Shown: positions 4,892 to 44,756 of the stretch, one piece after another
Position numbering within the stretch: position 1 is the first letter of the stretch
Layout: every line of letters starts with the position of its first letter
From: Methanobacteriota archaeon
GTDB taxonomy: Archaea > Thermoplasmatota > Thermoplasmata > RBG-16-68-12 > JAFNFQ01
Length of the DNA: 51,099 nucleotides
Direction: 5' to 3'
Assembly (NCBI GenBank): GCA_017885655.1
Contig: JAFNFQ010000008.1
Location: forward strand, 44,895-95,993
Made by a program: the position numbers and the translations under genes
Notes under the pieces: model-generated
What the model was told of the DNA's origin: nothing
Seen by the model: the letters and a program-made list of their open reading frames with translations, nothing else
Database searches by the model: none

Positions 4892-4908
4892 GGAAAACCG
4901 CCGCCAGG

Positions 4909-4959: not shown

Positions 4960-5009
4960 CCTAACAAAGGCTTATCTATCCGCTGAGTCGATGCAGAACA
5001 TGGAGAACG

Positions 5010-25993: not shown

Positions 25994-26860
25994 TCAGCGG
26001 TCGGCCTTGATCGCCGCCGCGAAATCCTCGGCAACGGAGATTTTCGACACCGGGCTCGGCACTGTGTCCGTCGACACGACGTCGTCGCAGACCTTCAGGT
26101 GCTCCAGGGCGTTCGCGGTGAAGAGCCCGTGGAGGCATGCGGCCATCACCCCTGTAGCCCCCTGCCCCTTGACCGCGTTCGCGGCGCTGACTATCGTTCT
26201 GCCGGTGGAGATGACATCGTCCACGATCGCCACTCTCTTCCCGCGGGCATCGAGGTTCTTGGGGGCCATGCGGACCGTGAAGCTGTCTATCCTCTCTTTC
26301 TCCAGCCAGTCCCATGACGCCCCTATGGCCTCCGAGACCTCCTTGGCATGTCTCACTGCGCCCTTGTCCGGGGAAAGCACGAGGTCCACACCCCTGCCCT
26401 TCAGATACCGCGCGATTGCGGGCATGCCGTCGACCTCCTTGGCGGGGACATCGAAGTATCCGAGCACGGAAGGGTTGTGCAGCCCCATCGTGTAGATCGC
26501 GTCAGCCTGCACCTGGACATGCTTCGCCAGGACGCGCGCGCTGACGCCCTCCCCTTCCTCGAACTTCTTGTCCTGCCTGCCGTAGCCGAAGTATGGTATA
26601 ACGAGCGTCAGCGAGGCCGCGCCCCCCTCGCGCACAGCGTCCTCGAGCAGCAATAGCTCGATGATCTTCGAGTCGGGGTGGGTAGTCTGCACGACGACGA
26701 TGTCCTCGCCCTTGACGGAGGCCTGCAGCCTCACGTACTGCTCGCCGTCGGGGAAACCCCCGGGGTGCTTCTCGTGCTGGACCGAGATATAATCGACGCC
26801 GAGCACGCGGGCGAGATTCTGTGCAAGATTCAGGGAAGCAGAGCCGCCGACTACCTTCAT
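25994..26860 (-). CDS. prs: Ribose-phosphate pyrophosphokinase
   Basis: FPDGEQYVRL, PYFGYGRQDKKFEEGEGVSARVLAKHV, PRPP-binding VAIVDDVISTGRTIV; start set at MKVVGG. Confidence 0.94.
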   Translation of the reverse strand: MKVVGGSASLNLAQNLARVLGVDYISVQHEKHPGGFPDGEQYVRLQASVKGEDIVVVQTTHPDSKIIELLLLEDAVREGGAASLTLVIPYFGYGRQDKKFEEGEGVSARVLAKHVQVQADAIYTMGLHNPSVLGYFDVPAKEVDGMPAIARYLKGRGVDLVLSPDKGAVRHAKEVSEAIGASWDWLEKERIDSFTVRMAPKNLDARGKRVAIVDDVISTGRTIVSAANAVKGQGATGVMAACLHGLFTANALEHLKVCDDVVSTDTVPSPVSKISVAEDFAAAIKADR

Positions 26861-26987
26861 TCTCCAACCCCGGATGGCGGGATGCTGCGCCACATATTTC
26901 AATCAGAGCCCACCCAGACTCGCGGAGGCGATAGGGGTCTGCGAGGCTTTTTATATCATACCTAGGGGTTTGTTCTACCGAGCTGCA

Positions 26988-28181
26988 ATGGACTTCTCGG
27001 AGTTTCAGGCGCTCCTGCGTCGTCACAGGAACGCCGTCGTCTTCGCCGCATTCGTCCTCCTCGTGGCGGGACTCGACCTTCTCCTGAATCCCCCGATCGA
27101 GGGGCGCATAGAGATACTGTCGCTGCCGTTTCTGGCGAGCGCGGCTTTCCTGTTTGCCATCGTGTTCTGGCCGACGAAGGTCGGCGTGCCGGCGGAGGCA
27201 CCGCCGTCAAATACGCTGGCGCACCGCTTCCTGAAGAGGGTGACCCTCGGATGGCGGCTGGTGCCGTTCTTCCCGCTGGCGGGCATCGCAATCATAGCTC
27301 TCGACGTTATCTACAATTTCCTCATCGCCGACTACCCGGTCCTCCAGATTCACGACACCGTCACGATCATGTTCGGCGTGTCGCTCATAGCCTATCCCTT
27401 CGTGCCGCAGAAGTTCGACCGCGAGAGGGACTTCGTCCTGTTCTTTTTCCTGATTCTCGTCCTTATGCTCGTGGTGCCGCTTCTGCTGTTTCGTATCGTC
27501 CAAGGCGACTTCGAGGAGGGCGTCAACTCGTACTCCTCGACGTTGCTCGCTCCCCAGTTGCGGTGGATTCTGAACCTGCTCGGGGTCCGGGCGAGTATCA
27601 TCCCCAGTCTGCCCGGCTCCTCAGCTCCAACTCTCGAGTTCATCACTCAGAGCGGCGCAAACATCTCAGTCCAGATCACGACATCCTGCTCGGGCATCTA
27701 CAGCTTCTCGATCTTCGCGGCGGCGTTCACAGCTTTCATCCTGACCGAGTTCGACAGAACGAACTGGCGGGTGTGGTCTCTGCTCGTCATGGGCTTCGTG
27801 GCATCGTATGTGGCCAACATCCTCAGGATGACCGTGATAGTGCTGGCGGGTTACTTCGGGAACACGTCGGCAGAAGCGGAGCGGTCGATGATGATCGCCC
27901 ATTCGAACGCTGGTTGGCTGATATTCCTCGGATGGATTACCCTTTTCTGGCTGCTGATGTACAGGTTCCTGTTCCCCCGGAAGAAGCGGACGGAGGCTGT
28001 CGAAAAAAGGAAGTTCTCCTCCTGTCCGCTGTGCGGTGAGCCGCTCTCTCCCACCGTACCCGGCTTCAAGTGCGATTGCGGCAAGATGTACCACGCATCT
28101 TGCATCCAAAAGAACGGGCGGTGTCCCGCATGCGACAGGTCGATAATCGTGACAGAAGCGGCGGGAAAAACCCTCACCTGA
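26988..28181 (+). CDS. Archaeosortase/exosortase-family protein with C-terminal RING/PHD-like zinc module
   Basis: Multiple TM segments with exosortase-type motifs TTSCSGIYSFSIFAAAF, NILRMTVIVLAG and AHSNAGWLIFLGW (Cys, Arg, His); C-terminal CPLCGEPLSPTVPGFKCDCGKMYHASCIQKNGRCPAC. Confidence 0.85.
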   Translation: MDFSEFQALLRRHRNAVVFAAFVLLVAGLDLLLNPPIEGRIEILSLPFLASAAFLFAIVFWPTKVGVPAEAPPSNTLAHRFLKRVTLGWRLVPFFPLAGIAIIALDVIYNFLIADYPVLQIHDTVTIMFGVSLIAYPFVPQKFDRERDFVLFFFLILVLMLVVPLLLFRIVQGDFEEGVNSYSSTLLAPQLRWILNLLGVRASIIPSLPGSSAPTLEFITQSGANISVQITTSCSGIYSFSIFAAAFTAFILTEFDRTNWRVWSLLVMGFVASYVANILRMTVIVLAGYFGNTSAEAERSMMIAHSNAGWLIFLGWITLFWLLMYRFLFPRKKRTEAVEKRKFSSCPLCGEPLSPTVPGFKCDCGKMYHASCIQKNGRCPACDRSIIVTEAAGKTLT

Positions 28182-28196
28182 TGTCAACGGCGGGAT

Positions 28197-29501
28197 TCAG
28201 CCTATGCGTCGATAGATGACTCCTTTGGGCAGCTTGTCCCTGTTCAGGGTCCGGCGGCCATCCACGATGACCGGCTTCTTCATCACGGCGAAATCCTCCC
28301 TTCCGAGCTCCCCATATTCCCGCCAAGAGGTTTGGATGATGCAGCCGTCCGCGCCCCTCAACGCGTCTCTGGCGGAGGATACCTGCCTCACCGCCAGATT
28401 CGCGCCGACCTCGGCAACTGACGCGGCGGGGTCGTGGGCCACCACGATGGCGCCACGCCTCAGGAGCTCGTGGATGATCGGCAAGGCGCGGCTGTCGCGA
28501 ACGTCGTCCGTGTCCGCCTTGAAGGCCAAGCCCAGCAGCGCGACATGCTTGCCGCCAAGGCTCCCCAGCTCCTGCTCGAGGAGGTTGACCACGCGCACCG
28601 CCTGACGCTCATTGAACTCCAGCACCGCCTTCAGCAGTGTCGGCTCGTATCCGAGGGACTTCGACGCCGAGACGACGGCTTTCATGTCCTTGGGAAGACA
28701 GGGGCCGCCGAAGCCCGCCCCAGGGACGAGGAACTTGGGATTGATACGCGAGTCAAGAGCCATCCCTTCCAGGACCTTGTCGGAGTCGAGTCCGAAGGAA
28801 TCGCATATGTTCGCAATCTCGTTTGCGAACGTCACCTTCGTGGCGAGGAAAGAGTTGGAAGCGTACTTCACCATCTCAGCGGTCTTGATGTCGCACCGCC
28901 AGGTCACGCAGTCGAAGTCGGAGTAGAGCTTCTCGAACATGTCCCCCGGTTTCTTCTCGTTGCTACCTATGACTATGCGATCGGGCTTGAGCGTGTCCTC
29001 CAGGGCGGTCCCCTCCCTCAGGAACTCAGGGTTCATGCACAGACCGAACGCGCCAGCAGACAGACCGGACTCCTTCATGAGTATCGGGGTCAGGAGCTTC
29101 TCGGTCGTCCCGGGGACCACCGTGCTCTTCACCGCCACGACCGGAAAATCCTTGCGACCTTTGATGGCCCTCCCGACGACTTTGGAGGCATCGGTTATGA
29201 AGCTCGTGTCCATCGATCCGTCATTGAGTGGCGGGGTACCCACGCAGATGAAATAGAACGCACTCCCCACGAGGGCGTCGCCGGCATTGCCCGTCACGCT
29301 GAAGTTGCCCTTCTTTATGGCTTTCCTGAGTTCCTCGCCGAGGCACTTCTCGCGAAAGGGCTGCCTGCCGCCGCTGATTGCCTTGACCTTGGCGGGGTCA
29401 ATCTCGTAGCACACGACGTCGTGTCCGAAGGTTGCGAATGCCACTCCTGTCGCGAGACCGACTCGTCCGAGTCCGATTATCGATATCCTCGCCATCGACA
29501 C
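28197..29501 (-). CDS. UDP-glucose/GDP-mannose dehydrogenase family protein
   Basis: ISIIGLGRVGLATGVAFATFGHDVVCYEID, VVPGTTEKLL, GAGFGGPCLPKD, LGLAFKADTDDVRDS. Confidence 0.94.
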   Translation of the reverse strand: MSMARISIIGLGRVGLATGVAFATFGHDVVCYEIDPAKVKAISGGRQPFREKCLGEELRKAIKKGNFSVTGNAGDALVGSAFYFICVGTPPLNDGSMDTSFITDASKVVGRAIKGRKDFPVVAVKSTVVPGTTEKLLTPILMKESGLSAGAFGLCMNPEFLREGTALEDTLKPDRIVIGSNEKKPGDMFEKLYSDFDCVTWRCDIKTAEMVKYASNSFLATKVTFANEIANICDSFGLDSDKVLEGMALDSRINPKFLVPGAGFGGPCLPKDMKAVVSASKSLGYEPTLLKAVLEFNERQAVRVVNLLEQELGSLGGKHVALLGLAFKADTDDVRDSRALPIIHELLRRGAIVVAHDPAASVAEVGANLAVRQVSSARDALRGADGCIIQTSWREYGELGREDFAVMKKPVIVDGRRTLNRDKLPKGVIYRRIG

Positions 29502-29545
29502 GTCATCGGGCCGTGCAAGATAAAAGCTTGCGAGCAGTCACCGGC

Positions 29546-31282
29546 TCACTTTATCTTGCCGTTGTTTATCGAATCGCAGAGATTCTTGACCCTTTCAAGC
29601 GAGGGCTTGTCGGTGTGCGTGAGAATCGTGTTCTCGGTATCGAGTATTGCACCGCCGACCGTCGTGGCGTTCGTGAGCTTCGGCAGGTCTATCTGCACGG
29701 TCGGATCCACGAACCCGGAGACCACGTTCAGCCAGAGGGCGAGCAACTGCCGCTTCGCCATCCCCATAATGTCTCCCTTGTACTCCGCCCAGAGGATGTC
29801 GCACGCCTGCTTTGGCGTCGTGAGGTTGGAGAACACGGCGGACCGGCTTCTGATTGCGTCGATGAATGACTGGGGCATGCCGACGTGTTCGCCCGAGGGC
29901 GAGCCGACATTGCACTGATGCTTCCAGTAGCCTATCGTGCGCGGTTCGAATCGAGGCGGGCGTGATTGTCCGATAACGTACAGCTTCCCGTCCCCAGCGC
30001 CGAACAGGACTTCCGCCTTTCCGTCACCGTCGATGTCCGCGACCCTGGGCTCGCTCCTGAGCCAGCGGGCGGGGAAGAACCACTCGATCTGTCCGGTCTT
30101 CGCGTCGAGGGAGTAGAGGCCGACATCCGAACCCGCCAGAATCTCGAGCCGCCCGTCTCCGTCGATGTCCGCGGTCACAAGCGCAGCTTGGGACCAATCG
30201 GTGTCAGGAAGCACGGTCTGCCACAGCTCCGTGCCGTCCGTGCCGCGGTACGCGACAATCGTGTGGGCGAAGGAGTCGCCGTTCACCACGTCGGGGAGGC
30301 CGTCACCGTCCACGTCGACCAGGGTCGGGCTCGTGTAGAAGTAAGTGTGATCCTCGTTTGCCCAGAGTAGACTCCCATCATTCCTCAACACTTGGATGCC
30401 GCCCGAGTCGATGAAGGAGAAGACGATTTCAGGCTTGCCATCGCCGTTGAGGTCGCCGATTGCGGGAGTCGCCTCGACTCCATAGCCGATTCTTCTTTCC
30501 CAAAGCATGGTGTGCGTCTTGATCGAATACGCCCTGGCCACCGCATGGTTGTCTAGGGCCACGAAGTCTCTCTCGCCGTCACCGTTCAAGTCTGCGAAGG
30601 GCGAGGAAGCGAGGATGTAGTGTTCGAACACGGGGCTCCTCCAGAGGATACTGCCCCTTGCCCCATCGAAAGTATAGACGTGGCGGTCTAGGCTGCCGAG
30701 CGTGAGGTCCTTGACGCCGTCGTTGTTCACATCGAACAGCACGGGGGAGGCGGCGAATCCCTCTTCCCAGAATGTCCCTACATCCATGTACGTCCACTTC
30801 AGGGCCCCGGTGACCGCATCGGCGACATACAAGCTCAAGCCATTCTTTGGTCCGAACGACAACTCGGAGAAAATAACCTCCGGCGTTCCATCCCCATCGA
30901 TGTCTGAGACCGCATTCGCACGCACATCCCACTTCACCGGGTCGGTCCAGATTGGCTGCCCCAGACTATCGAGCGCGTAGAGGGTCCTGGGATCGCTGTT
31001 TGACTTGATCTGTCCGAAGAAGACCTCCTTCTTGCCGTCGCCGTCCACATCGTATGTGAGCGGGGCTGTCGCGAACACGCCGTCGGTCTGGAATGTCCAC
31101 CTGACCTGAGGAGTCACGATATCGCTCGACTCGTGCGCGATCCCCGTGCGGTTCCAGTCATATCTGAATAGAGTATCCGACTGGATGATCGAACCTCCGT
31201 GATGAGTTGCAACCATAGTTGCGGGATTCACCATCATCGCTGCCAATACAGCGGTCAACGCGAAAGTTGCATTGAGCGGCAT
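29546..31282 (-). CDS. Secreted FG-GAP/VCBS repeat protein with C-terminal GYWK module
   Basis: Signal-like N-terminus; repeats DVDGDGKKEVFFG, DIDGDGTPEVIFSE, DLNGDGKPEIVFSF, DIDGDGRLEILAGSD; C-terminal RTIGYWKHQC...MAKRQLLALWLNVVSG. Confidence 0.88.
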   Translation of the reverse strand: MPLNATFALTAVLAAMMVNPATMVATHHGGSIIQSDTLFRYDWNRTGIAHESSDIVTPQVRWTFQTDGVFATAPLTYDVDGDGKKEVFFGQIKSNSDPRTLYALDSLGQPIWTDPVKWDVRANAVSDIDGDGTPEVIFSELSFGPKNGLSLYVADAVTGALKWTYMDVGTFWEEGFAASPVLFDVNNDGVKDLTLGSLDRHVYTFDGARGSILWRSPVFEHYILASSPFADLNGDGERDFVALDNHAVARAYSIKTHTMLWERRIGYGVEATPAIGDLNGDGKPEIVFSFIDSGGIQVLRNDGSLLWANEDHTYFYTSPTLVDVDGDGLPDVVNGDSFAHTIVAYRGTDGTELWQTVLPDTDWSQAALVTADIDGDGRLEILAGSDVGLYSLDAKTGQIEWFFPARWLRSEPRVADIDGDGKAEVLFGAGDGKLYVIGQSRPPRFEPRTIGYWKHQCNVGSPSGEHVGMPQSFIDAIRSRSAVFSNLTTPKQACDILWAEYKGDIMGMAKRQLLALWLNVVSGFVDPTVQIDLPKLTNATTVGGAILDTENTILTHTDKPSLERVKNLCDSINNGKIK

Positions 31283-31465
31283 GACCCTTCCCCCTAGCCT
31301 GTGGATATTTCCCTGCCAGCTATATTATGCTTTTGAGGGAGAGATATCGATGTATTCACGCTACCGAGGTGAAAAAGTCGTAATCAGAATCGATAATAGC
31401 AATCGACAGAGCTTGCCGCATCTTCGGTTTGACTACTGCGCCCGTTCGCCGACCTTCGGGATTGC

Positions 31466-32314
31466 CTAGAATGTCCGTCCCATCTCGTCGAGCGTCGAGA
31501 ACTCATATCCTTTCGCTTTCAAGATTCCTAAGAATTCGGATAGGGCAGGCAGGTTATCTTTGCACCCCTTCTTCGTCCAGCGCGGGAGAGTGGGGAATCT
31601 GGCGAACAGGTCGACGAACTCCCACGGGTGCAAGACCAAGACGATTGGCGACGCATCGGCGAGGAGAACCGCCTCGACGGCCTTATCGACGCCCTGAGTA
31701 TTCAGATACCCGCCGCCAATCGGCGCTTCGCGATTCAAGGGGTTCTCCGTGGCGGGCATTTCCAATACATGCGAGTCTCCGCGTTTTGCAACATCCTCGA
31801 GCGAGGCATGGTATGGCGAGGTTGGCGCCCCGCGGAAGTCATAGGCGTAGCCATGCAGACTCTTCATCGTTCGCCCGGGCAGAACCGAGGAGTCGATGCT
31901 ATAGCTGGCCATCTCAAGGCACCTGAGCGTGTCGCCGTTGACGCTGAAATCCGGAGCCCTGAAGACGGTCATCTTCCGCCCCGAAGCCTCCTGGAGGATC
32001 CTCGTCGATTCGTTGATCTCCCGCAACTGTGTCTCGAACTCGCTCAGGCAGAGCAGGCCATGCTGCTTCGCATGGCATCCAAGGTTGAACCCCTCGTCAG
32101 CGATCTCCTTTGGCAGGGAGGGGTAGGCAGAGCACAGCTGGGCGAGCATGAACACGTTTGCGGGTACCTGCTCCGTCTTCAAGAGGTCGAGGATGCCGGG
32201 GAGAGCGATTTGCACCCCCATGTGGCTGTCACCCAGGTAGGGCGGGTAGTCGGGCTCGACATCGAGCGAGACGATCGCCGTCCTCGTTCTCCCGCCCTGC
32301 GTGTTCGTCTGCAA
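31466..32314 (-). CDS. Polysaccharide deacetylase family protein
   Basis: IVSLDVEPDYP, VPANVFMLAQLCSAYP, EGFNLGCHAKQHG, FRAPDFSVNGDTL. Confidence 0.85.
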   Translation of the reverse strand: MQTNTQGGRTRTAIVSLDVEPDYPPYLGDSHMGVQIALPGILDLLKTEQVPANVFMLAQLCSAYPSLPKEIADEGFNLGCHAKQHGLLCLSEFETQLREINESTRILQEASGRKMTVFRAPDFSVNGDTLRCLEMASYSIDSSVLPGRTMKSLHGYAYDFRGAPTSPYHASLEDVAKRGDSHVLEMPATENPLNREAPIGGGYLNTQGVDKAVEAVLLADASPIVLVLHPWEFVDLFARFPTLPRWTKKGCKDNLPALSEFLGILKAKGYEFSTLDEMGRTF

Positions 32315-32382
32315 TTGACCCTTGCCCTTCTCTGAGAAACGGATAGAAGGTTTTTAGCATATGAGCCTTCTTCCCTGATTCC

Positions 32383-33243
32383 GTGAAGGCGGTCATTCCC
32401 GCGGCTGGTCTCGGCACCAGATTCCTCCCCTACACCAAGGCGCAGCCCAAGGAGATGCTCCCGGTTCTCGACAAGCCCGCCATCCAGTATGTCGTCGAGG
32501 AGGCGGTGGAGTCAGGTTGCCGCGAGATACTCATCGTAACTGGAAGGGGAAAGAGGGCGATCGAGGACCATTTCGATAGGAACGTGGAGCTAGAGGATTA
32601 CCTGCGCCGTCAGGATAAGCTCAAGGAACTGGAGCAGATGCTCAGGGTCGGCAACCTCGCGAATATAATGTACGTCCGCCAGAAGGAGCCGCTCGGTCTC
32701 GGGCATGCCGTTTCCTGCGCGGAACAGTACGTGGGCAAGGAGCCTTTCGCTGTCCTCCTCGGAGACGACATATGCATCGACGGGGACCCGTGCACCAAGC
32801 AGCTGATTAACGTGTTCGAGAAGAGGAACGCCACGGTTCTGGCGGTGCAGGAGGTTCCGCGCAATAAGATCAGCTCGTATGGGATTGTGACGGGCTCGAA
32901 GATCGGGGAGAACCTGTACAGGGTGGAGGACATCATCGAGAAGCCCTCGCCGGACAAGGTGAAGTCGAACTTGGCGACCATTGGGAGGTACGTCTTCACA
33001 ACTGGAATCTTCGAGAAGCTGAAGACCGCGAAGCCGGGTATCGGCGGCGAGATACAGCTCACAGACGCCGTAAGGGGCTTGCTGAAAGGCGAGGAGGTCT
33101 TGGCGGTTCATTTCAAGGGAAGGCGGTACGACATTGGCGACAAGCTCTCCTGGCTCATCGCGAACATCGAGCTTGCAGCGGAGAGGCCGGAGCTAAAGGA
33201 AGCGCTCGCGGCGGTGCTCAAAGATCGGACGCATCGGAGATGA
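32383..33243 (+). CDS. galU: UTP-glucose-1-phosphate uridylyltransferase
   Basis: KAVIPAAGLGTRFLPYTKAQPKEMLPVLDKPAIQYVVEEAVESG; GTG start. Confidence 0.92.
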   Translation: MKAVIPAAGLGTRFLPYTKAQPKEMLPVLDKPAIQYVVEEAVESGCREILIVTGRGKRAIEDHFDRNVELEDYLRRQDKLKELEQMLRVGNLANIMYVRQKEPLGLGHAVSCAEQYVGKEPFAVLLGDDICIDGDPCTKQLINVFEKRNATVLAVQEVPRNKISSYGIVTGSKIGENLYRVEDIIEKPSPDKVKSNLATIGRYVFTTGIFEKLKTAKPGIGGEIQLTDAVRGLLKGEEVLAVHFKGRRYDIGDKLSWLIANIELAAERPELKEALAAVLKDRTHRR

Positions 33244-33299
33244 ATGGTTTCACGTGATTCGTAGTAGCCTGGAAATCGGCGCAATGAGGTAGGTTCGGG

Positions 33300-34304
33300 A
33301 TGGCGGACAAACCACGCGTACTCTTCGTGCACATCAGCCCTGATCGCGTGAGCTTTGTGAAGAAGGACATGGATATCCTCGCTCGTCATTTCGAGGTGCG
33401 CGAGGTCTTCTACAGGTACCGGCGAGACGTTCCGAAGGTGGCGCGCGGGACTCTCTGGGCCGACGTGACATTCAGCTGGTTCGCGTGGGATCAGGCTGCG
33501 TGGGCGGTGCGGTTCTCAAGGATGCTCGGACGCAAGTCGATCGTGATTGTCGGCGGATTCGACGTCATCAGCATGCCTGAGATTTCGTACGGGAACCTGC
33601 TCAATCCGCGCCCCGCGAAGAGGACGCGCTACGCGATCACTCGTGCGACGCGCGCAATAGCGATATCGCAGTCGATAAGGGAGGACGCGCAGCGTTTCAC
33701 GGGACGTCAGGACATCGGGCTGATCTACCACGGCTTCGACTCGGAGGCGTTCAAGCCCTCAGGCCCCAAGCAGCCGATCGCGCTGACGGTCGGGACATTG
33801 AACTTGTCAAACCTGAAAAGGAAAGGGATGGAAACTTTCGTCAGGGCGGCACAGTTCGCGCCGGAAATTCCGTTTCGCCTGGTCGGCAAGGTCGAGCAGG
33901 ACGCATTTGATTTGATCATGGGGTTCATCCCGGACAACCTCACTCTCGTGGGGAAGGTGGATTCGAAGACCCTCCTCGAGGAGATGCAGAAGGCGGCGGT
34001 TTACGTCCAACCGTCGGCGCACGAGGGTTTCGGTTGCTCTCTCGCTGAGGCGATGCTCTGCGGTGATATCCCGGTCGTGACGAATGCGGGGGCGATCCCG
34101 GAGGTGGTCGGCGACACCGGGACCTACGTGCCACGCGAGGACCCCGAAGCGACCGCCATGGCCGTCCGCCAGGCGGTGGGGATGAAGGACGGGGCGCGGG
34201 CCCGGACGCGTATCGCGGAGATGTTCCCACTCAGCAAGAGAGAGGCTGCCTTGGTCGCAGCGGTCGAGGAAGTCCTTGGCGGGAAGGCTGGTGGCGGAAG
34301 TTGA
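33300..34304 (+). CDS. Glycosyltransferase (GT4-like)
   Basis: VYVQPSAHEGFGCSLAEAMLCGDIPVVTNAGAIPEVVGDTG. Confidence 0.88.
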   Translation: MADKPRVLFVHISPDRVSFVKKDMDILARHFEVREVFYRYRRDVPKVARGTLWADVTFSWFAWDQAAWAVRFSRMLGRKSIVIVGGFDVISMPEISYGNLLNPRPAKRTRYAITRATRAIAISQSIREDAQRFTGRQDIGLIYHGFDSEAFKPSGPKQPIALTVGTLNLSNLKRKGMETFVRAAQFAPEIPFRLVGKVEQDAFDLIMGFIPDNLTLVGKVDSKTLLEEMQKAAVYVQPSAHEGFGCSLAEAMLCGDIPVVTNAGAIPEVVGDTGTYVPREDPEATAMAVRQAVGMKDGARARTRIAEMFPLSKREAALVAAVEEVLGGKAGGGS

Positions 34305-35455
34305 AGGTCATCCACTGGAACATGCGTTACTTCCCTCTGCTCGGCGGCATCGAGACGCATGTCGACACTCTGATTCGCCACATGCCCGAAATCGAGTTCG
34401 AGGTGGTCACTGACGCTCTTCCCGGCGCTGCGAACGTGGAGAAATACCGCCCCAACGCCACGATTCGCAGGTTTCCGCCAATCGACAGATCGAGAGTCAG
34501 CAAGCATCGAAAGCTCGCCGTCCCCGTGGCGGCCTTGAGGGACACGCTCAGGGATTCCAGGGAGGCGAGGTACCTCACCACGGCGGAATACGACGTGCTG
34601 CACGTGCACGACTTCGAGAAGAACCTTGTGATCCTCGAGGACGTCACCCGCATCAAGATGCTGGGAGACTTCGAGGTGAGACTGCACGACCCGAAGAGGT
34701 TCAACAGGCCGCACCTTCTCACGAAGCACTTCATGTTCACGGAGGAGAACTCGACCCCGGCGCTGAGGAGATGGGAGGAAAGGCTCGTGCGCCAGTTCGA
34801 GACCGTTGTGTGCGTCGACAAGCCGATACAGCAAAGGTTCGCCGGCTTGGAGGGTGCGAAAAGGGTCTTGTTCATCCCGAACCCGATCGACACGGAGACA
34901 TTCTCGTATTCGCCGCCGCTGAATGATAAAGTCCTGCATCTGGCGTTCGCCGGCCGATTGGATGTGGCTAGGGGGGAGCCATTGCTAATCGAGTTCGCGC
35001 GCAACCTGCCGGAGGGCACCGACCTGGCGTTGGCGGTCCAGCACCCCGGTCAAAGGCTGAAGGACATCCAAGCAGCCCTTGGCGGGAACCACATAAGGAT
35101 CGAGCTGGACGTGCCCTACGGGAAAATGCCGCGGTTCCTGAGCGGCATCAACGTACTGCTCAACCCGATCACGGACACATACTCGACGACGAGAGTCACG
35201 TTGGAGGCCATGGCGGTCGGGAGGCCGGTCGTCATGCTCGACACCGGTGAGCGCTACCCGATCAGACACGGCGAGAACGGTTTCCTTGTGCCGCCGAGCG
35301 CGAAGAGCCTCGCCGACCTCGTTGAGAAGCTCAAGGCAGATAGGAAGGGCCTTGAAGCCGTCGCGCGCAGGGCAAGATATGACATCGAGAGGGAGTTCGC
35401 CGCCACAATTATCGCACCGAGGATCCGCCAGCTCTACGAAGAGCTCGCCGGGTGA
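34301..35455 (+). CDS. Glycosyltransferase (GT4-like)
   Basis: GGIETHVDTLIRHMPE, VLLNPITDTYSTTRVTLEAMAVGRPVVMLDTG; overlaps the upstream GT by 4 bp. Confidence 0.87.
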   Translation: MKVIHWNMRYFPLLGGIETHVDTLIRHMPEIEFEVVTDALPGAANVEKYRPNATIRRFPPIDRSRVSKHRKLAVPVAALRDTLRDSREARYLTTAEYDVLHVHDFEKNLVILEDVTRIKMLGDFEVRLHDPKRFNRPHLLTKHFMFTEENSTPALRRWEERLVRQFETVVCVDKPIQQRFAGLEGAKRVLFIPNPIDTETFSYSPPLNDKVLHLAFAGRLDVARGEPLLIEFARNLPEGTDLALAVQHPGQRLKDIQAALGGNHIRIELDVPYGKMPRFLSGINVLLNPITDTYSTTRVTLEAMAVGRPVVMLDTGERYPIRHGENGFLVPPSAKSLADLVEKLKADRKGLEAVARRARYDIEREFAATIIAPRIRQLYEELAG

Positions 35456-35465
35456 GCCCGCCCCT

Positions 35466-36392
35466 TCAATCAGCCGGATTTAATGATTCCCAGGTCAGCT
35501 CCAATCCTTCGCGCAGACTCGTGTCTGCTTTGAACCCCAAGACCTTTCGGGTCTTCGTCATATCGGCGTGCAGGCGGCGGTACTCATGCATCCTTGTCGC
35601 CGCGTGCCTCGGTTCGAGTTCTCCCAGTCCCGCCACGTCGATGACGAGCGATGCGAGTTTATTGATGGTCGTCTCAGATTCGCTCCCAACGTTTAGGATC
35701 TCCCCGACGGCGGCTTTCCGCTCCGCCGCGAGGAGAGTCGCCTTTACCACGTCTTTGACATAGATGAAATCCCTCGTCTGCTTTCCATCCCCGTATATGA
35801 TTGGCGGGAGGCGTCGACGCGCCCTGCCAAGGAATCTGGAGACCACGCCTGAATAGGGATTCCTCGGGTCGGCACGCGGACCGTAGACGTTGAAGTATCT
35901 CAGGACGACCGCAGGGATGTTCCAGGCGTGGTGGAAAGCCATCGCATACGCTTCTGCGGCGGCCTTGCTCGCCCCGTAGGGAATGATCGGAGACAGACAT
36001 TCGGATTCTTTCGCAATTCCCTTTCCCCCTGGGTTTCCGTACACCATGACCGAAGAAGCGACCACGACCCTTTCAATGCTGGCGCTCCTGCAAGCCCTGA
36101 AGACGTTGAAAGTCCCGAGAGCGTTCGTGTCGAAGTCGAGGCGGGGGAAGAAAACGGAGCGTCCGACGCAGGCTCCGAGGTGGAACACGAAGTCCGACCC
36201 ATCGACCACCTTTCTTACATCATTGGGACGCCTGAGGTCTCCCTTGACAACATTCACCCTCCTAAAGTCGATGTTCTTGGGCGATCCGCTTGAGAAGTTG
36301 TCAAGAATCGTCACTTCGTGGTTTTTCTTCAGGAGAATGTCAACTAGGTGCGAGCCGATAAACCCTGCACCACCCGTCACCAGAGCTCTCAA
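35466..36392 (-). CDS. NAD-dependent epimerase/dehydratase
   Basis: VTGGAGFIGSHLVDILL, VVASSVMVYG, YGASKAAAEAYA, LRYFNVYGPRADP. Confidence 0.93.
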   Translation of the reverse strand: MRALVTGGAGFIGSHLVDILLKKNHEVTILDNFSSGSPKNIDFRRVNVVKGDLRRPNDVRKVVDGSDFVFHLGACVGRSVFFPRLDFDTNALGTFNVFRACRSASIERVVVASSVMVYGNPGGKGIAKESECLSPIIPYGASKAAAEAYAMAFHHAWNIPAVVLRYFNVYGPRADPRNPYSGVVSRFLGRARRRLPPIIYGDGKQTRDFIYVKDVVKATLLAAERKAAVGEILNVGSESETTINKLASLVIDVAGLGELEPRHAATRMHEYRRLHADMTKTRKVLGFKADTSLREGLELTWESLNPAD

Positions 36393-37042
36393 TCTTTGCC
36401 TCTCATGAATCTTTCATCCACAGATCCCACAACGCGACCTGGCAGCCCGGCCATGATGGATCTCGGGGGCACATTCCTCGTGACAACACATCCTGCTGCT
36501 ATTATTGATTCTCGTCCGATGTGGACACCAGGGTTGAGGGTGACGTGAGGTCCAATCAAGACTTTATCTCCAATCGAGGAAGGAGTCATAGGTTCTTCGT
36601 CTGCGCTTCCGTCCCAGAAGGCCTTCGAAAACTTGCGATTGAGCGTCACTAGATAAGGACCTGAGAAGACACCATTTCCCAGCGCAGTCTTCGGTGCGAT
36701 ACGAGCTGGTCCTGTGATTCTGCAATCTCGGCCAATCGCAGCGGTCGGATCGATATCGACAAATGAACCGAGCTTCGTTCTATCCCCTATCCGGACATGC
36801 TCGCGGACAATGACGTAGTGCCCCATTTCTACTGCCGTTCCGAGAGAAGCAGTTGCATAAACAACACAGCCACTCCTTAAAACGCATCTAGGACCAATCT
36901 TAGTGATGAACGAATGCTTCAATTCGCCCCCTATGAGAACATCGCGTGGGGGATAACCGACTGTGACCCCATCATCTATCACGCAACCCTCGCCTATTCT
37001 CACCTTCCCAAATTTCCGGCATCTACCTATCGTCGTATTCAT
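36389..37042 (-). CDS. Hexapeptide-repeat acyltransferase
   Basis: Left-handed beta-helix repeats (IGEGCVIDDGVTVG, IGPHVTLNPGVHIGRESIIAAGCVVTRNVPP). Confidence 0.88.
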   Translation of the reverse strand: MNTTIGRCRKFGKVRIGEGCVIDDGVTVGYPPRDVLIGGELKHSFITKIGPRCVLRSGCVVYATASLGTAVEMGHYVIVREHVRIGDRTKLGSFVDIDPTAAIGRDCRITGPARIAPKTALGNGVFSGPYLVTLNRKFSKAFWDGSADEEPMTPSSIGDKVLIGPHVTLNPGVHIGRESIIAAGCVVTRNVPPRSIMAGLPGRVVGSVDERFMRGKD

Positions 37043-38100
37043 TTTCTATCCCGCCATTGACTCATGGTATCCTCTGGCTTTATGATCTGCACCCCGACAT
37101 ATCGGATGAGCACTAGCCCCTCCTTGAATTCGCACGCTGGTATCTCCCGGCCCATTGCCGTTTTCACGTACATGAGAGGGATGTTGCAGCCCGCGGCAGT
37201 CGCGAGGTCTACATCCCCCCCGACCCTTGGATTCACATCGAGTATCTTGAGATTCCCTCTTCGATCCTGTGCTACCTCGACGTCTACTGGGCAATGTAGG
37301 CCAAGTTCACGCACGGCCCTGATGCAGATTAGCTCGACCTCCTTGTTATGTTCTGTGACTATCTCCCGCTGTTGTCGATGGACTTCCCAGTGAACCGCTC
37401 GCATAGGGACGCAGGCCAGCGCTTTTCCATTCTGGCTCAACATGACAATCGTGTCGTACTCAGTGCCAGGAAGATATTCTTGGAGAATGAGATCCGCAGC
37501 CCCAGCAATGTTGACGTATGCATCGACAAACGGGAGAGCGGCCTTTAGGGCGGAAAACGCCTTTATGAGTTCCTGATAGTTCTGGCAGATGTGAAGACCC
37601 CTTCCTCCTCTAGATGCGCGGGGCTTGATGGCGAGAGGGTAGCCAATTTCGTCGGCATCCGCGTGGAGAGAATCTTTGTCATGGACTCGGAGGGTTTCAA
37701 CCACTGGAATCCCTACCTTGTTCAGCCAAACATAGGTTCCCCATTTGTCATTGCAAGCATCAACGCCTTTCTTTTTCCCAATCAGGCACTCGACTTCCCC
37801 ACGGAGTCTGTTCATGTTGGCCGCAAGGACAGAGACTTCCTCGTCCACTGTGGGAAACAGCACGTCGATTCCGAATTTCTTACACACACTCAGCAACTCT
37901 GAAACAAAATTCCGATCATGGGCTGGCGGCAGAATCGTCTTCTCGGGCGGCCAAAATAAGCCTGGTGCCATAGGGTTCATGTCTGCTGCAACTACTTTGA
38001 CCTCTTGCGCCAGCAGTAGGCTGCGAATTGTCCCCATGCCTGCAGGGCCGCCAGCCCCCGTCACCAGAACCTTCGTGGACTTAGGCATCGTCCGCCTCAC
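37039..38100 (-). CDS. ATP-grasp domain protein
   Basis: VLVTGAGGPAGMGTIRSLL, YPLAIKPRASRGGRGLHIC, DVEVAQDRRGNLKILDVNPRVGGD. Confidence 0.88.
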   Translation of the reverse strand: MRRTMPKSTKVLVTGAGGPAGMGTIRSLLLAQEVKVVAADMNPMAPGLFWPPEKTILPPAHDRNFVSELLSVCKKFGIDVLFPTVDEEVSVLAANMNRLRGEVECLIGKKKGVDACNDKWGTYVWLNKVGIPVVETLRVHDKDSLHADADEIGYPLAIKPRASRGGRGLHICQNYQELIKAFSALKAALPFVDAYVNIAGAADLILQEYLPGTEYDTIVMLSQNGKALACVPMRAVHWEVHRQQREIVTEHNKEVELICIRAVRELGLHCPVDVEVAQDRRGNLKILDVNPRVGGDVDLATAAGCNIPLMYVKTAMGREIPACEFKEGLVLIRYVGVQIIKPEDTMSQWRDRK

Positions 38101-38751
38101 TCACCACGCCGCTCTCTTCAGCTTGGGCGCCTGGATTTGGCCATGCAGGTGAGATATCTCGAAACACTCTGCGAATAGGAACTGCGGGTCGAATCCCCTG
38201 AACCTCGCCTGTCCCTCGACCAGTTCCGGCCTAACTGCCCTCTTTGACTTCTGTGTGAGGTGCTTCCTCACCGCCTCCAACTTACGTCCTATCGTGCTCG
38301 TGATGTCAACGTAGTACTGCGGACAGAAGAGGTTGCTGGACGACGGAGTCTCGAAGTACATCAAGGCTGGGCAGGTCCTTGCCGCTGAGGTCGCTGCATG
38401 CGAGACGTCCCTGTGGTCTTGGTGCCTTTCGGAAGAAGTGTGGGTGTAGACGATGTCCGCATCGACCGTCTTGAGAATCTTCTCGATTCTGTTGACGACG
38501 TTGATCGAGTCGCCGATTGCCCCGTCGGGAAATCCAAGGAACTCGGTCTTCCGCGCTCCAAGGATTTTGGCGCCTTCCCTAGCCTCTCTCGTTCTCTCCT
38601 TTGGATTGCCGCCGCGCTCCCCGTTGGATACATAGATGAAAGTTACCAGGTCGCCGACGTCGGCGTGGAGCGCCACTGTCCCGCCGCAGCCGAACTCGAT
38701 GTCATCGGGGTGCGCTCCGACCGCGACGACTGAAACTTTTCTGTCAGCCAT
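38101..38751 (-). CDS. PIG-L/LmbE family deacetylase
   Basis: VVAVGAHPDDIEFGCGGTVALHA, TSSERHQDHRDVSHA; start set at MADRKVSV. Confidence 0.92.
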   Translation of the reverse strand: MADRKVSVVAVGAHPDDIEFGCGGTVALHADVGDLVTFIYVSNGERGGNPKERTREAREGAKILGARKTEFLGFPDGAIGDSINVVNRIEKILKTVDADIVYTHTSSERHQDHRDVSHAATSAARTCPALMYFETPSSSNLFCPQYYVDITSTIGRKLEAVRKHLTQKSKRAVRPELVEGQARFRGFDPQFLFAECFEISHLHGQIQAPKLKRAAW

Positions 38752-38891
38752 CACATCACCGTGGTTTGGAACCTGAGTGCCAGACGAAAGTGCGTTCATA
38801 TAATGGTTTTCCCATGGTTCCGTTGTCGCAACGACCAAGCGAACAATGTTTATATTGAGATTTCGGATGGGGTGCGGAAGGATGAGGAAAC

Positions 38892-39878
38892 ATGCCCGTG
38901 ACGCGAAGGTGTCTTATCATTGGTGGAGCGGGTTTCATAGGCTCACACCTAACTGAGTTCCTGATCAAGAAGGGAGACGAAGTCTCCGTGCTAGACATGC
39001 TCTCCTCCGGCGCTTTTCGCAACGTCGCGTCCTTCATAGACAAAAGCCATTTCATCAGGGGGGATGTCTCGAAGGCGGAGTTCCTCGAGAAGTGCGCCAA
39101 GAGGATTCGTCCCCAAGTCATTTTCAATCTCGCGGCAACCAACCTCCTCGGCTCAATGAAGGATCCTAGGAGGGACCTGATGGTCACGGGTATCGGAACA
39201 ATCAATGTCCTTGAGGTTGCGAGGAAGTCGCACTTCGTGGAGCGTGTCGTCTTCGCCTCGTCTGGTTCTGTGTACGGGGAAGCACGGTACTCACCGCAGG
39301 ACGAGGTTCATCCGCTGGAACCTACCTCTCCTTATGGGGCGACGAAGCTCCTGGCTGAGAAGTACTTCAGGGTATGGAAGGAGCTGTACGATGTCTCCTA
39401 CTCGTCGCTCCGCCTCTATAACGTGTACGGGCCTAGGCAGGACTACAGCCGCCAAGGAGGTGTCATCCCGATATTCATCAGCAGGATGCTGAAGGGACAG
39501 CGACCGATGATTGAGGGCTCCGGACGGCAGAAGAGGTGTTTCACACATGTGACAGATGTCGTCCGCGCTTTCGCATTGGCCGCGGATCACCCTCAGGCGG
39601 ACGGGCTCATGTTCAACGTCGCCTCCAAAGAGGTGTGTACTGTCCTCGATCTGGCCGATAAGCTGAACAGCCTTCTCGGGACAAGCATTGAGCCGATCTT
39701 CGGACCGCCGCGACTTGGAGATATTATGGATTTCAGACCGGATATCAATCTGGCGGAAAAGAAGCTCGGTTATGAACCGAAAATCTCACTGGACGAAGGG
39801 CTCGCGAGCACCATCGACTGGCTCAGGAAGGATGAGGCAGATGGGGCGTCCTCGCGTCGAGCGTCCCGTACTTCCTGA
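38892..39878 (+). CDS. NAD-dependent epimerase/dehydratase
   Basis: CLIIGGAGFIGSHLTEFLIKKGD, FASSGSVYGEA, SPYGATKLLAEKYF, LRLYNVYGPRQD. Confidence 0.94.
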   Translation: MPVTRRCLIIGGAGFIGSHLTEFLIKKGDEVSVLDMLSSGAFRNVASFIDKSHFIRGDVSKAEFLEKCAKRIRPQVIFNLAATNLLGSMKDPRRDLMVTGIGTINVLEVARKSHFVERVVFASSGSVYGEARYSPQDEVHPLEPTSPYGATKLLAEKYFRVWKELYDVSYSSLRLYNVYGPRQDYSRQGGVIPIFISRMLKGQRPMIEGSGRQKRCFTHVTDVVRAFALAADHPQADGLMFNVASKEVCTVLDLADKLNSLLGTSIEPIFGPPRLGDIMDFRPDINLAEKKLGYEPKISLDEGLASTIDWLRKDEADGASSRRASRTS

Positions 39879-41022
39879 TCCACGCCTTGCGGATTAGCTC
39901 CATCGCGGTCTTCGCCCGCATGTCCCATGTGTTGTCTTTCGCAAGTGCTCTGCGGCGCTCCTGCGACGACGGCGGCTCTTTCAGCGCCTTCTCAACGCAC
40001 TCTATGAATTCCTTTGGATTCTCCGCCAAGGCTACAGCATCGCCCCATAGACGTAACGGAGGGAGTGCGGTAGAAACGATTGGCTTGCCGGTCGCGAGAT
40101 ATTCGTAGAACTTCACCGTCTCCGAGACCTTCGTCGTCTCGTTCAGCTTGTATGGGATGAGGCAGACATCGAACCATGCAACATACTGAGGCAATGCATC
40201 GTAGTCCTTTGGACCGAGCATGTGGACGTTCGGGAGGTCGCGGAATTTCGCCACTTCCTTCAAAGTCTCACCCACATCCCTGACAGGTCCGATGAGAACA
40301 AGCTGCCAAGCCGGTCTTTGCACCGCTATCTCCTTGAGGAGCGTGCCGTCTATCCACTCATGAATGTTCCCTGTGAAACCCAGGATTGGACCGTGAAGGT
40401 TCGCGAGCTCAGGCGGTTTATCAGAGCCATTCTCCGAAGTCATCATGAAACTCTTCACGTCGACTGCTTGGGCGAGAACGTAGGAATGAGGATTGTCCTC
40501 GGTTGCCACGCGCATGAGCGGCTCCGTCGCGGCGAATGCGAGATCCGTTTTCCGCAGCAGGGTTTTTTCGTCTTCGCGTATCTTGGCCGGTGCCCAGGTG
40601 AATAGCGAAGTCTCGCACGCGTTGTCACAGATGGTTATCCCTTCGTTGAACGCGCCGACATATTCGTGGAACTGGGGTGACCAGTGCCACACGACGAGGT
40701 TTCTCATGCCGAGCAACTTCGTGAACAGCCCGACGGTCAGCGAGAAGGCACGTTTATTGATGGCGCGTGTCCAATGCATCTTCGATTGGTAAGGGATAAT
40801 CTTGAACCGTTTCATCGCCCAGAGACCCGGCTCAACTCTCCTGATGAGCCGCCATGGCGGGAACCAAGCCATCGAGGCATGTTCGCCCGTGTCTTCGATG
40901 TAAAGAACCTTGGTCCCGAAGTTCGCGATGAGCGCTCTCATCAGGTGGTGGGGCCTGTGCTTGACCGGTCCCCATGGCGGCGCGAAGAGGTAGATATGGT
41001 CGAACCGGGTTTCCTCCTTCAC
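39823..41022 (-). CDS. Glycosyltransferase family protein
   Basis: IYLFAPPWGPVKHRPHHLMRALI; VCLIPYKLNETTKVSETVKFYEYLATGKPIVSTALPPL. Confidence 0.85.
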   Translation of the reverse strand: MKEETRFDHIYLFAPPWGPVKHRPHHLMRALIANFGTKVLYIEDTGEHASMAWFPPWRLIRRVEPGLWAMKRFKIIPYQSKMHWTRAINKRAFSLTVGLFTKLLGMRNLVVWHWSPQFHEYVGAFNEGITICDNACETSLFTWAPAKIREDEKTLLRKTDLAFAATEPLMRVATEDNPHSYVLAQAVDVKSFMMTSENGSDKPPELANLHGPILGFTGNIHEWIDGTLLKEIAVQRPAWQLVLIGPVRDVGETLKEVAKFRDLPNVHMLGPKDYDALPQYVAWFDVCLIPYKLNETTKVSETVKFYEYLATGKPIVSTALPPLRLWGDAVALAENPKEFIECVEKALKEPPSSQERRRALAKDNTWDMRAKTAMELIRKAWIRKYGTLDARTPHLPHPS

Positions 41023-42215
41023 TCCCCACCTCCCGCAAAATCACGGATGCGTTTCATCTCACCATCGAACAGCAACCGCCAATCCAGCTTCCCTGCCGCT
41101 TCCTTCGCGCGACCTGACATCTCTGCCCATTTGCCATGGTCTGTGATGAGTCCAGCGCAAGCTTCTGCGATCGCCTCAACGTTGTTTTCGACAAACAGGC
41201 CCGCCCCCGAATCTTTGAGCACCTGTCTCGTCCCGTCGGCACCAGTGCTGACAACAGGGAGTCCTGCAGCGAGGTACTCGGAAACCTTCAGCGGGAAGGA
41301 GTAGCGCATCAGTTCGTTGGCTGGGAAGACCGCCATGCCGACTGAACATTCCCCGTAGAGGGCAGGGAGCTCGTCGTGCCTCTTTGGACCGAGGAAGTCG
41401 ACAGCCGCTTCCACTCCTCTCTCGCGGGCAAGAGCCCTGAGCTCCGAATCGCAGAATCCACGGCCGATGACCCTGAAGCGGACCTCAGGGGCCCTCTTGA
41501 GGATTCCTGGCAGCGCATTGATCGTGACATGAACTCCCGACCATGTGGCCAGCGTGCCGGAATACAGGAGGTACGGCTTCCTCCTGCCTTCAGAGTCCTT
41601 GCCTGCGAAGGCGGACAGGTCGACCCCGTTAGGCACCGTTATCGCTTTCTTCGCCCCCTGCCGCAGTCGGAGCGTGGCCAGCTCATCGCTCACGGAGACA
41701 ACCAGGTCGCTGTTCCTGATTGCCCAGGTTTCAGTGAAGGCTATTTGTGCGCGGTTGAAGGTATGAGGGGACCATTCGAACGCCGGAAGGAAGTCCAGAT
41801 CCTCGTAGACGAGGAAATCGATTTTGCCCATCTGCCTCAGAGCCGCCGCCATGACTGCCATGAGGTCCCCGTGGACGATGCAGATCCGCCAGTGCTTTTG
41901 TCTCATCCTGAGCACCCTCAGCGCGAAGCGCATCAGCCGCAGCACGTTCAGCTGGAGTTGGCGACGCGAGCCACCGGGGAGGAATTCGCCCAAGACGGCC
42001 GAGGGGATGCCAATGAACGTGCCAGCGCCGCTCTTCCATTGCCGCGCAGAACCGCCAGGAAGGGGGAAGACCGCCGTGTAGGGCACTTCCCTCTCGTCGA
42101 GGTATCTTATGAGGAAAGCCATCCGATGGGTGGGGCCTGGGCCGAGCAACAGGCTGAGATTCATGCCCGTCATCAGGAGAATCGAACCATCGTCGTTTGC
42201 TCCCGCGGATGACAT
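41019..42215 (-). CDS. Glycosyltransferase (GT4-like)
   Basis: ITVPNGVDLSAFAG, FLGPKRHDELPALYGECSVGMAVFPANELMRYSFPLKVSEYLAAGLPVVSTGADG. Confidence 0.88.
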   Translation of the reverse strand: MSSAGANDDGSILLMTGMNLSLLLGPGPTHRMAFLIRYLDEREVPYTAVFPLPGGSARQWKSGAGTFIGIPSAVLGEFLPGGSRRQLQLNVLRLMRFALRVLRMRQKHWRICIVHGDLMAVMAAALRQMGKIDFLVYEDLDFLPAFEWSPHTFNRAQIAFTETWAIRNSDLVVSVSDELATLRLRQGAKKAITVPNGVDLSAFAGKDSEGRRKPYLLYSGTLATWSGVHVTINALPGILKRAPEVRFRVIGRGFCDSELRALARERGVEAAVDFLGPKRHDELPALYGECSVGMAVFPANELMRYSFPLKVSEYLAAGLPVVSTGADGTRQVLKDSGAGLFVENNVEAIAEACAGLITDHGKWAEMSGRAKEAAGKLDWRLLFDGEMKRIRDFAGGGE

Positions 42216-42287
42216 CGTATTGCCCCTCTCAACCGACGATTATCGGGCTTCTTCGATCAATGCGTCCCTCATTTAGGGAATCTATGT

Positions 42288-43769
42288 TCATCTGGACACC
42301 TTTTTCAGGATTGAGCGCACAAAGTCCCATTCGTACTCCCGCAGCATCATCGCCGTGGCCACGACGACGATGATGAGCACCACGGTGGAGGCGAGGTAGA
42401 ATGGAAGGCTATCGATGAAGAAGGAAGGCAGCGCGCCGAGAACAAAGCCGAACGCCGCGATTGGCATTATTATCTCGATGTCGTGAAGCACGATGCCGAA
42501 CTTGACGCGCGCGTACGCGAGCACCCCAATGGTGTAGACCACGTAGGATATCAGGGTGGCGATGCCCAGGCCGACTTCAGCCATCGTCGGCACGAAGATC
42601 AGCGTGCAGACAATGATGGTGATCATCCCTGTCACATTCAGACCGAAGCTCACCCACATTCTGCCAGTGCCCATGAGGACGCAGACGATTACATTGTCGA
42701 AGGCTATGAGGAAAGTCCCTATGCAGAGGAAGTACAGCACCCGCGATGCGCTCATATAAGCGTCGCCGTAGAGAATCGAAATGGCAATAGGCGAGAATAG
42801 CGCCAGGAGCATGGTCACCGGCAGGAAGAAAACGAACGTCATGTGAAGGACTTTCGAGCTTAACGCCTGCATCCTCTCTTTGTTGACTGTCTCGAGTTCG
42901 GAGATAAGGGGGATCATCGGCGTGGAAATGGCGGTGGGAATGAGGAGAAGAGAGGTGGACAGACCGCTCGCGACTGAATATAGCCCGACTGCAGTGAACC
43001 CGCTGTGCTGCTGAAGGATCGTCAGCACGAGCCATAATATGGGTGAGACAACGAGCCCCGTCAGGGTGAGCGGCAGTGCGTATCGAAACAGCTTCCTCGC
43101 CTCGGTGTGATCAATCGTGAAGCGCAACCTGATACTCCTGTCCCTCAGGATATTGCCGACAATGGGGATGTAAACCCCGAGCCCTATGAATGCGCTCACA
43201 ACCATCGCAATCACGGCGCCCCAGAGGCCCCAAACTAAGATTAGTGCCAGGGCGAAAGGCACGGTGAGGAAAGTCGCGATGATGTTTCTCAAGCTCAGCT
43301 CTCGAATCCTCTGGAATCCTGTCAGGATGCCGCCGAATGGTTGCGCGAGGGCGTTCAGGAAGAGCGGGACTGAAGCGACGATTAGCATGCCGGCCATTTT
43401 GGGTTCGTTGTAGAGATTGTTTCCTATGGGGTTTGCGATTAAGGTGAGAACCAGAGCACTTATGCCAGCAGTCACACAAATCAAGCTCATCGTGGTGGAG
43501 ATGAGCGGCGCAAGCCTGGAGCGGTCCTTCGTCTCGTATTCGGCGATATACTTCACAGCCGCCCCTCCTATGCCGAAGGCCGCAAATTGCCCCACGACGG
43601 AAATGACGCCGCCCAGAATCGCGAGGATTCCGAGCTGTGAGGCGCCGAGCAGACGGGCCACGACGATCGAGTTGACTATGAACGCGAGCTTGACGAGGAC
43701 GGTGGCCATGAATGAGTAGGCTGTCCCCTTGACAAGCTTGGCCCGGGGACTCTCCGAGGGGGTCTCCAA
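42288..43769 (-). CDS. Oligosaccharide flippase (Wzx/MATE-like)
   Basis: Polytopic; AKLVKGTAYSFMATVLVKLAFIVNSIVVARLLGASQLGILAILGGVISVVGQFAAFGIGGAAVKYIAEY. Confidence 0.9.
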   Translation of the reverse strand: METPSESPRAKLVKGTAYSFMATVLVKLAFIVNSIVVARLLGASQLGILAILGGVISVVGQFAAFGIGGAAVKYIAEYETKDRSRLAPLISTTMSLICVTAGISALVLTLIANPIGNNLYNEPKMAGMLIVASVPLFLNALAQPFGGILTGFQRIRELSLRNIIATFLTVPFALALILVWGLWGAVIAMVVSAFIGLGVYIPIVGNILRDRSIRLRFTIDHTEARKLFRYALPLTLTGLVVSPILWLVLTILQQHSGFTAVGLYSVASGLSTSLLLIPTAISTPMIPLISELETVNKERMQALSSKVLHMTFVFFLPVTMLLALFSPIAISILYGDAYMSASRVLYFLCIGTFLIAFDNVIVCVLMGTGRMWVSFGLNVTGMITIIVCTLIFVPTMAEVGLGIATLISYVVYTIGVLAYARVKFGIVLHDIEIIMPIAAFGFVLGALPSFFIDSLPFYLASTVVLIIVVVATAMMLREYEWDFVRSILKKVSR

Positions 43770-43814
43770 CTGGTCTCCTTCCAGATTAGCGGGGTCTTTG
43801 AATGATAACCCCCC

Positions 43815-44693: not shown

Positions 44694-44756
44694 AGAATTA
44701 TTACTATCGATTCGAGTTCGCAGCGATACGCCTCCGGGCCATCGAATGAGATGGTC

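Follow-up and report, generated by a model that had tools for sequence, protein, structure and literature searches.

A RING-type zinc tail on an archaeosortase C-like protein of Thermoplasmatota archaea

We consider here a gene of an uncultured Thermoplasmatota archaeon that lies within a stretch of 51,099 nucleotides of contig JAFNFQ010000008.1, which was analysed as a whole and is called the window below. The question that this locus raises is whether its product truly joins an archaeosortase to a zinc module of the ubiquitin-ligase type and, if so, what such a module may do on a membrane enzyme that processes surface proteins.

The fused protein and its two halves

It is noted that the archaeosortase-RING fusion is real and is conserved in many relatives, as discussed below. 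The preliminary description had read the gene as one continuous frame that holds both a membrane core and a C-terminal Cys/His cluster, and the translation bears this out, giving a single uninterrupted frame for a protein of 397 residues (Table 1); an in-frame ATG is also present upstream, at 26874, and the homology begins at 26988. The three motifs named before, TTSCSG, NILRMT and AHSNAGW, are all found in the translated protein, and the cluster is confirmed at its place with the spacing C-x2-C-x12-C-x-C-x4-H-x2-C-x6-C-x2-C. Among the eight cysteines of the protein, seven lie within the zinc module and the remaining one is the catalytic Cys234. That the fusion could be seen only here, through a sequencing frameshift, is excluded by the presence of full-length fusions in about 20 other Thermoplasmatota genomes, and a core lacking the clustered Cys, Arg and His is likewise excluded, with Cys234, Arg280 and His305 being invariant. 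An artefact of any kind (a frameshift, a fusion of neighbouring genes or a spurious Cys cluster) has as its sole support the weak matches of the single sequence to the Pfam RING models, which stay below threshold (zf-RING_2, 19.5 against 27.3; Prok-RING_1, 17.2 against 29.1). Set against about 20 genomes in which the whole protein is conserved, its ligands kept and its catalytic residues invariant, it keeps next to no probability, and a frameshift or a chance cluster was rejected on the ground of that conservation.

The archaeosortase-family nature of the core, as proposed before, is upheld by scores above the cut-offs of both Pfam Exosortase_EpsH (PF09721; 38.8 bits, cut-off 25.7) and NCBIfam TIGR04178 (48.6 bits, cut-off 23). 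The best subfamily match of the core is archaeosortase C (ArtC, TIGR03762) with 72.1 bits, under the cut-off of 100, and judged by these scores the protein is a member of an ArtC-like branch, not filed as ArtC itself. Based on the positive-inside prediction, Cys234 would start helix 6 and His305 would lie outside, ahead of helix 8, with the tail inside after the basic linker. The cytosolic placement of the module that had been thought probable is thus retained as a prediction, from the eight helices and the distribution of Lys and Arg (Table 1). Moreover, the module also stands after the last helix in a C11 peptidase (a signal peptide plus one helix) and in three surface-type proteins, and this same arrangement on other proteins adds to the predicted cytosolic placement of the tail.

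The eight ligands of the tail are in cross-brace order with C4HC3 spacing and are conserved in two alignments (A1 and A5). A profile of 25 tails searched against the PDB matched RING E3s, with RNF165 the best at 4.4e-8, followed by Arkadia, gp78, HRD1 and XIAP, and the full-length profile, through its final 70 positions, led to the same matches. With the alignment of 25 rows AlphaFold2 gave a model of moderate confidence, with a mean pLDDT of 73.6, reaching 85-88 in the core, where a beta hairpin is followed by a helix; the model from the single sequence alone is weak (pLDDT 62.7). Nearly all of the top 50 Foldseek matches of the tail model are RING or related E3 domains, with probabilities up to 1.00 and a best E of 0.007; no match reaches E 0.001, which is expected for a domain of this small size. 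A PHD or FYVE fold was rejected: among the Foldseek matches the best ranks are 32 for PHD and 38 for FYVE, and in the profile search FYVE appears only from E 0.006. By profile and by comparison of the modelled fold, the tail is of the RING type, so that of the RING/PHD-like module proposed before, the RING part stands and the PHD part does not. Note also that the residue ahead of ligand 2 is hydrophobic (L348) and that the linchpin position after ligand 8 is Asp, followed by Arg; an Arg or Lys at this position is not conserved in the homologs of the RING-tailed archaeosortase.

Table 1. Features of the fused gene and its flanks, in window coordinates
Feature	Position	Strand	Evidence
RING-tailed archaeosortase C-like protein, 397 aa	26988..28181	+	translation; PF09721 and TIGR04178 above cut-off; about 20 full-length homologs
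Eight-helix membrane core, predicted N-in/C-in	26988..27974	+	hydropathy; K+R 20 inside, 5 outside
Cys234, catalytic Cys in TTSCSG, predicted at outer face of helix 6	27687..27689	+	invariant in alignment A1; topology
Arg280, catalytic Arg in NILRMT	27825..27827	+	invariant in alignment A1
His305, catalytic His in AHSNAGW, predicted on outer side before helix 8	27900..27902	+	alignment A1; topology
Basic linker, predicted cytosolic, PRKKRTEAVEKRKFSS	27975..28022	+	7 K/R in first 25 residues after helix 8
C-terminal RING-type zinc module, C4HC3, predicted cytosolic	28023..28133	+	ligand spacing; RING E3 profile match; AlphaFold2; Foldseek
Ribose-phosphate pyrophosphokinase, divergent neighbour	25994..26902	-	Pfam; neighbour cluster 1 in 15 loci
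UDP-glucose/GDP-mannose dehydrogenase, start of surface-glycan locus reaching to about 46 kb	28197..29501	-	Pfam; ORFs

Relatives, substrates and other carriers of the module

Full-length homologs turned up in a search of 61 genomes, both within the same order and in further families of the class; most of them share 40-50% identity over residues 1-390. The taxonomic distribution, whose inspection had been recommended, shows that the fusion recurs across at least eight families of Thermoplasmatota. In the alignment of 18 fused homologs (A1) the three catalytic residues and seven of the ligand columns are invariant and the column of C362 is nearly so, with one residue shifted in a single homolog (L019); the non-ligand positions of the tail vary while the eight-ligand core stays conserved. 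When 84,980 bacterial and archaeal species were scanned, 37 loci were obtained, nearly all of them from Thermoplasmatota or from metagenome genomes filed as 'Euryarchaeota'. One RING-tailed archaeosortase (L061) stands on a contig filed as Acidobacteria, which is probably misbinned.

Among the 111 genomes of a class sample the fused form, as judged from the matched range, is present in families f1-f5, f7, f17 and f21, and the homologs in f8, f9, f12 and f18 are without the RING tail. In two archaeosortase homologs (L069, 6001-6939; L077, 6001-6966) the position of the RING is taken by one or two zinc ribbons, as would be expected of an exchangeable docking module. In the tree of the cores the RING tails fall in two clades, and a single clade of RING-tailed proteins is rejected by the AU test (p 8e-5). 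The identity at non-ligand positions between the tails of the two clades is 28%, compared with 16-17% with other modules, and this likeness makes one gain with losses or replacements likelier than two gains. One old fusion followed by losses and replacements may thus be the history of the protein, which remains uncertain given the long branches in the tree.

The divergent gene for ribose-phosphate pyrophosphokinase is kept beside the fused gene in many relatives (neighbour cluster 1, 15 loci). On the other side there is a surface-glycan locus (28197-46086) with sugar-nucleotide enzymes, glycosyltransferases, a flippase and methyltransferases, inside which an FG-GAP surface protein is encoded at 29546-31282. 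Exosortases often sit in polysaccharide loci, and the glycan setting of the fused gene fits that pattern.

For the substrates, a scan for tagged C-termini in the window and its flanks found almost nothing, and the family search of the genome gave three very large proteins that end in PEF followed by a hydrophobic helix and Arg/Lys, for example IPEFPDVIPLLVLIPAILVTLQRRRPG. These three C-termini match the PEF-CTERM model with E of 0.001-0.002, just under its 23-bit cut-off, and one of the candidate tagged proteins is encoded on the contig of the archaeosortase gene, 34 kb away. At two loci of this genome (L147, contig C82; L149, contig C8) large PEF-tagged frames start with TPR-like or zinc-ribbon sequence, so that an N-terminus that looks cytosolic is oddly combined with a sorted C-terminus.

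In one respect the picture given by the preliminary description changes. The fusion itself stands, as shown above, and the module is no single attachment: it is one of a lineage-wide set, and the idea that it is unique to the archaeosortase was rejected, as it is found on unrelated membrane and cytosolic proteins. Across the class it is also C-terminal on DUF835 membrane proteins, OppF-type ABC ATPases, C11 peptidases and coiled-coil proteins of about 1500 residues; the window's own genome has four copies, 73 of the 111 class genomes have at least one, and the module extends through the phylum. The tail alone also matches small zinc-ribbon proteins in these genomes. RING modules are general adaptor parts in this class. 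The OppF-type peptide-transporter ATPases with a C-terminal RING module were observed at L033, L038 and L133, and in the own genome at L091.

The module is also met in trans. At three loci with a tailless archaeosortase (L078, L082, L084) the archaeosortase gene is followed by one for a radical SAM enzyme and then by one for a protein with a signal peptide and one helix that ends in the module. The gene just upstream of the archaeosortase encodes a tag of the EFGPG...RRK type at L078, L082 and L086 (of the PEFGPG type at the former two), and two of these three tagged proteins match the PEF-CTERM model weakly. The four loci look like putative operons of an EFGPG-tagged substrate, an archaeosortase and a radical SAM enzyme, with the RING-tailed membrane protein following in three; the presence of the radical SAM enzyme suggests a further modification of the substrate. 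Together with the fusion, the gene order in trans is suggestive, though short of proof, of an interaction between archaeosortase and module.

The role of the tail, with and without a ubiquitin-type system

A link to ubiquitin-type conjugation had been implied by the proposal of a ligase assay on the tail. This link holds for relatives and fails for the organism itself. In relatives there is an operon for an E1-like ThiF protein (7e-51), a ubiquitin-like protein (Ubl) ending in PDPEGG, an E2 with HPN and the catalytic Cys, and a JAMM protease. The Ubl, whose PDPEGG end sometimes carries one or two extra residues, matches both YukD and ubiquitin models, and the E2 was detected in families f2, f3, f17 and f21; in most members the residue that follows YP in loop 4 is aromatic or hydrophobic. 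The operon was located at L092 (775-3049, reverse strand) and also at L094, L095 and L100-L105; in genome G007 (contig C39, 61116-61757) the Ubl and JAMM genes are adjacent with no E2 between them, unlike in the sister genomes, which may reflect a deletion or an assembly error. By contrast, E2, Ubl and JAMM were not found in the window's own genome (G000) with Pfam, E2 and Ubl profiles, nor with sensitive profiles in the sampled genomes of f4, f5 and f7, where the archaeosortase tails keep all ligands. The genomes are metagenome-assembled and the own one is 94% complete, by which single absences are weak, and the absence repeats across family f4. Two marginal JAMM-like matches, in G004 and G027, differ in type from the JAMM of the operon.

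Based on these data, the reading that we put slightly above an even chance is that the protein is an ArtC-like sortase with a cytosolic RING docking tail which, in the window's lineage, is independent of any E2. Cleavage at a C-terminal tag, probably with transfer, is established for the archaeosortase family, and in this genome Cys234, Arg280 and His305 at the outer face would cleave large surface proteins at the C-terminal PEF-type tag and probably transfer them. The RING tail, being placed on the opposite side of the membrane from these residues, cannot take part in the catalysis. Most likely it would dock a cytosolic partner, and the docking may couple the sorting to the delivery, processing or quality control of the cytosolic end of the substrate. 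In those relatives that have the E1-Ubl-E2-JAMM operon, an E2 could be a further partner of the same tail, and in the window's lineage the conjugation system would have been lost and the tail kept with an E2-independent function; the docking role may have descended from, or may be shared with, an E3-like role in the relatives. That the tail recruits partners had been suggested in the preliminary description, and it is also the reading that we favour.

The main rival is that the protein is a membrane-embedded E3, the RING tail recruiting a Ubl-charged E2 and modifying PEF-tagged substrates or neighbouring proteins at the membrane, much as HRD1 and gp78 do in eukaryotes, which for this protein we regard as rather unlikely; that the outcome would be quality control of surface-protein export is doubtful to the same degree. 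The operon in class relatives speaks for it, as does the distribution of the module, which is present in 48 of 48 E2-bearing genomes, with an E2 in 0 of 38 module-free genomes (Fisher p 3e-13, uncorrected for descent, so that the test ignores phylogeny, a point against this reading). RINGs use the residue before the second ligand to contact the E2 (I30 in the Caldiarchaeum srfp, PMC5654768), and where the genome has an E2, 7 of 7 fused proteins have I, L or V at this position; a relaxation of this residue in E2-less lineages was considered and set aside, its loss in 3 of 13 against 0 of 7 being too few to count. The loop 4 residue that most E2 members keep and the HRD1 and gp78 RINGs among the profile matches point the same way. 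In three f12 genomes (L117, L118, L119) about 5 kb separate an E2-like gene from the RING end of a long coiled-coil protein, and at L117, where adjacency is seen (3411-8617), the two genes are divergent neighbours; the coiled-coil protein, of about 1460 residues and with the RING module at its C-terminus, is a candidate for a dedicated E3. The co-occurrence of module and E2, together with the proximity in f12, suggests that the modules work with the E1-Ubl-E2-JAMM system where this is present. However, 11 of the 19 sampled genomes with the fusion have no detected E2, the Arg/Lys linchpin right after the last Cys is not conserved, and the tail is kept in the own genome and in f4, f5 and f7. As the own genome and the sampled f4 genomes lack all three of E2, Ubl and JAMM, an E3 role cannot explain the conservation of the tail there; and since the tails keep all ligands in E2-less lineages, the tail must do something else in them. 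A simple E3 role in this organism was thus rejected, and for this protein docking is ranked before E3, which is favoured more for the E2-bearing relatives. For those Thermoplasmatota one may tentatively imagine a true membrane E3 that couples sorting outside to Ubl tagging inside, the window's lineage having lost the conjugation and kept the RING for another use, and this too we think has a low probability.

Still less probable is that the tail has no partner and serves only for structure or dimerisation, by stabilising the last helix at its C-terminal end. The conserved eight-ligand core amid variable non-ligand positions and the zinc ribbons that replace the tail at L069 and L077 are consistent with it, but many homologs have no tail at all, and the module recurs on unrelated proteins and in trans in the archaeosortase operon. 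Note that a purely structural or dimerisation role would look like docking in the present data. The finding places a fold of the ubiquitin-ligase type on the predicted cytosolic face of an archaeal enzyme for surface-protein processing, and it shows this fold serving as a general adaptor throughout an archaeal class. Lineages that have E1-Ubl-E2-JAMM and lineages that have lost it, all with the same RING tail, offer a natural comparison for the roles of RINGs before, and without, ubiquitin transfer. If the E3 reading were true, the RING-tailed archaeosortase of the E2-bearing relatives would be an archaeal counterpart of the membrane-embedded quality-control ligases.

Comparison with known systems

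The closest known system is ArtC (TIGR03762) with PEF-CTERM, which the protein resembles in the catalytic triad, in the helices and in the candidate PEF-type tagged proteins present in the genome and beside unfused relatives. It differs from that system in scoring 72 bits, under the cut-off of 100, in having a RING tail that is predicted to be cytosolic, and in that the gene here belongs to a glycan locus and lies apart from its candidate tagged proteins. With the RING E3s RNF165, Arkadia, gp78 and HRD1 it shares the treble-clef RING fold with eight ligands and, with HRD1 and gp78, a RING on the cytosolic side of a polytopic membrane protein, as predicted here; by contrast with them, the module here is C4HC3, has a short loop between ligands 6 and 7 and no conserved linchpin, and belongs to a genome without an E2.

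Burroughs, Iyer and Aravind are said to have described, in 2011, RINGs of prokaryotes, conjugated Ubls of the YukD kind and membrane peptidases with attached zinc domains. The present protein is similar to such treble-clef domains on peptidases in having a zinc domain, here predicted to be cytosolic, on a membrane protein-processing enzyme, and its match to Prok-RING_1 is weak; to our knowledge, no archaeosortase is among the described prokaryotic fusions with RING or treble-clef domains. The expectation that archaeosortases are not described with RING domains agrees with the literature as covered by titles, abstracts and term counts, where no paper linking an archaeosortase or exosortase with a RING or zinc finger was found.

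The Caldiarchaeum E1/E2/srfp cascade (PMC5654768) is alike in having an archaeal RING and, for the relatives, E1, Ubl, E2 and JAMM in one operon. It differs in that the RINGs here are spread over the genome on other proteins, instead of being a small RING gene in the operon, and in that the ubiquitin-type system is absent from the window's genome. In comparison with these systems the kinds of part are all known, and it is the combination, its conservation and its persistence without an E2 that appear to be new.
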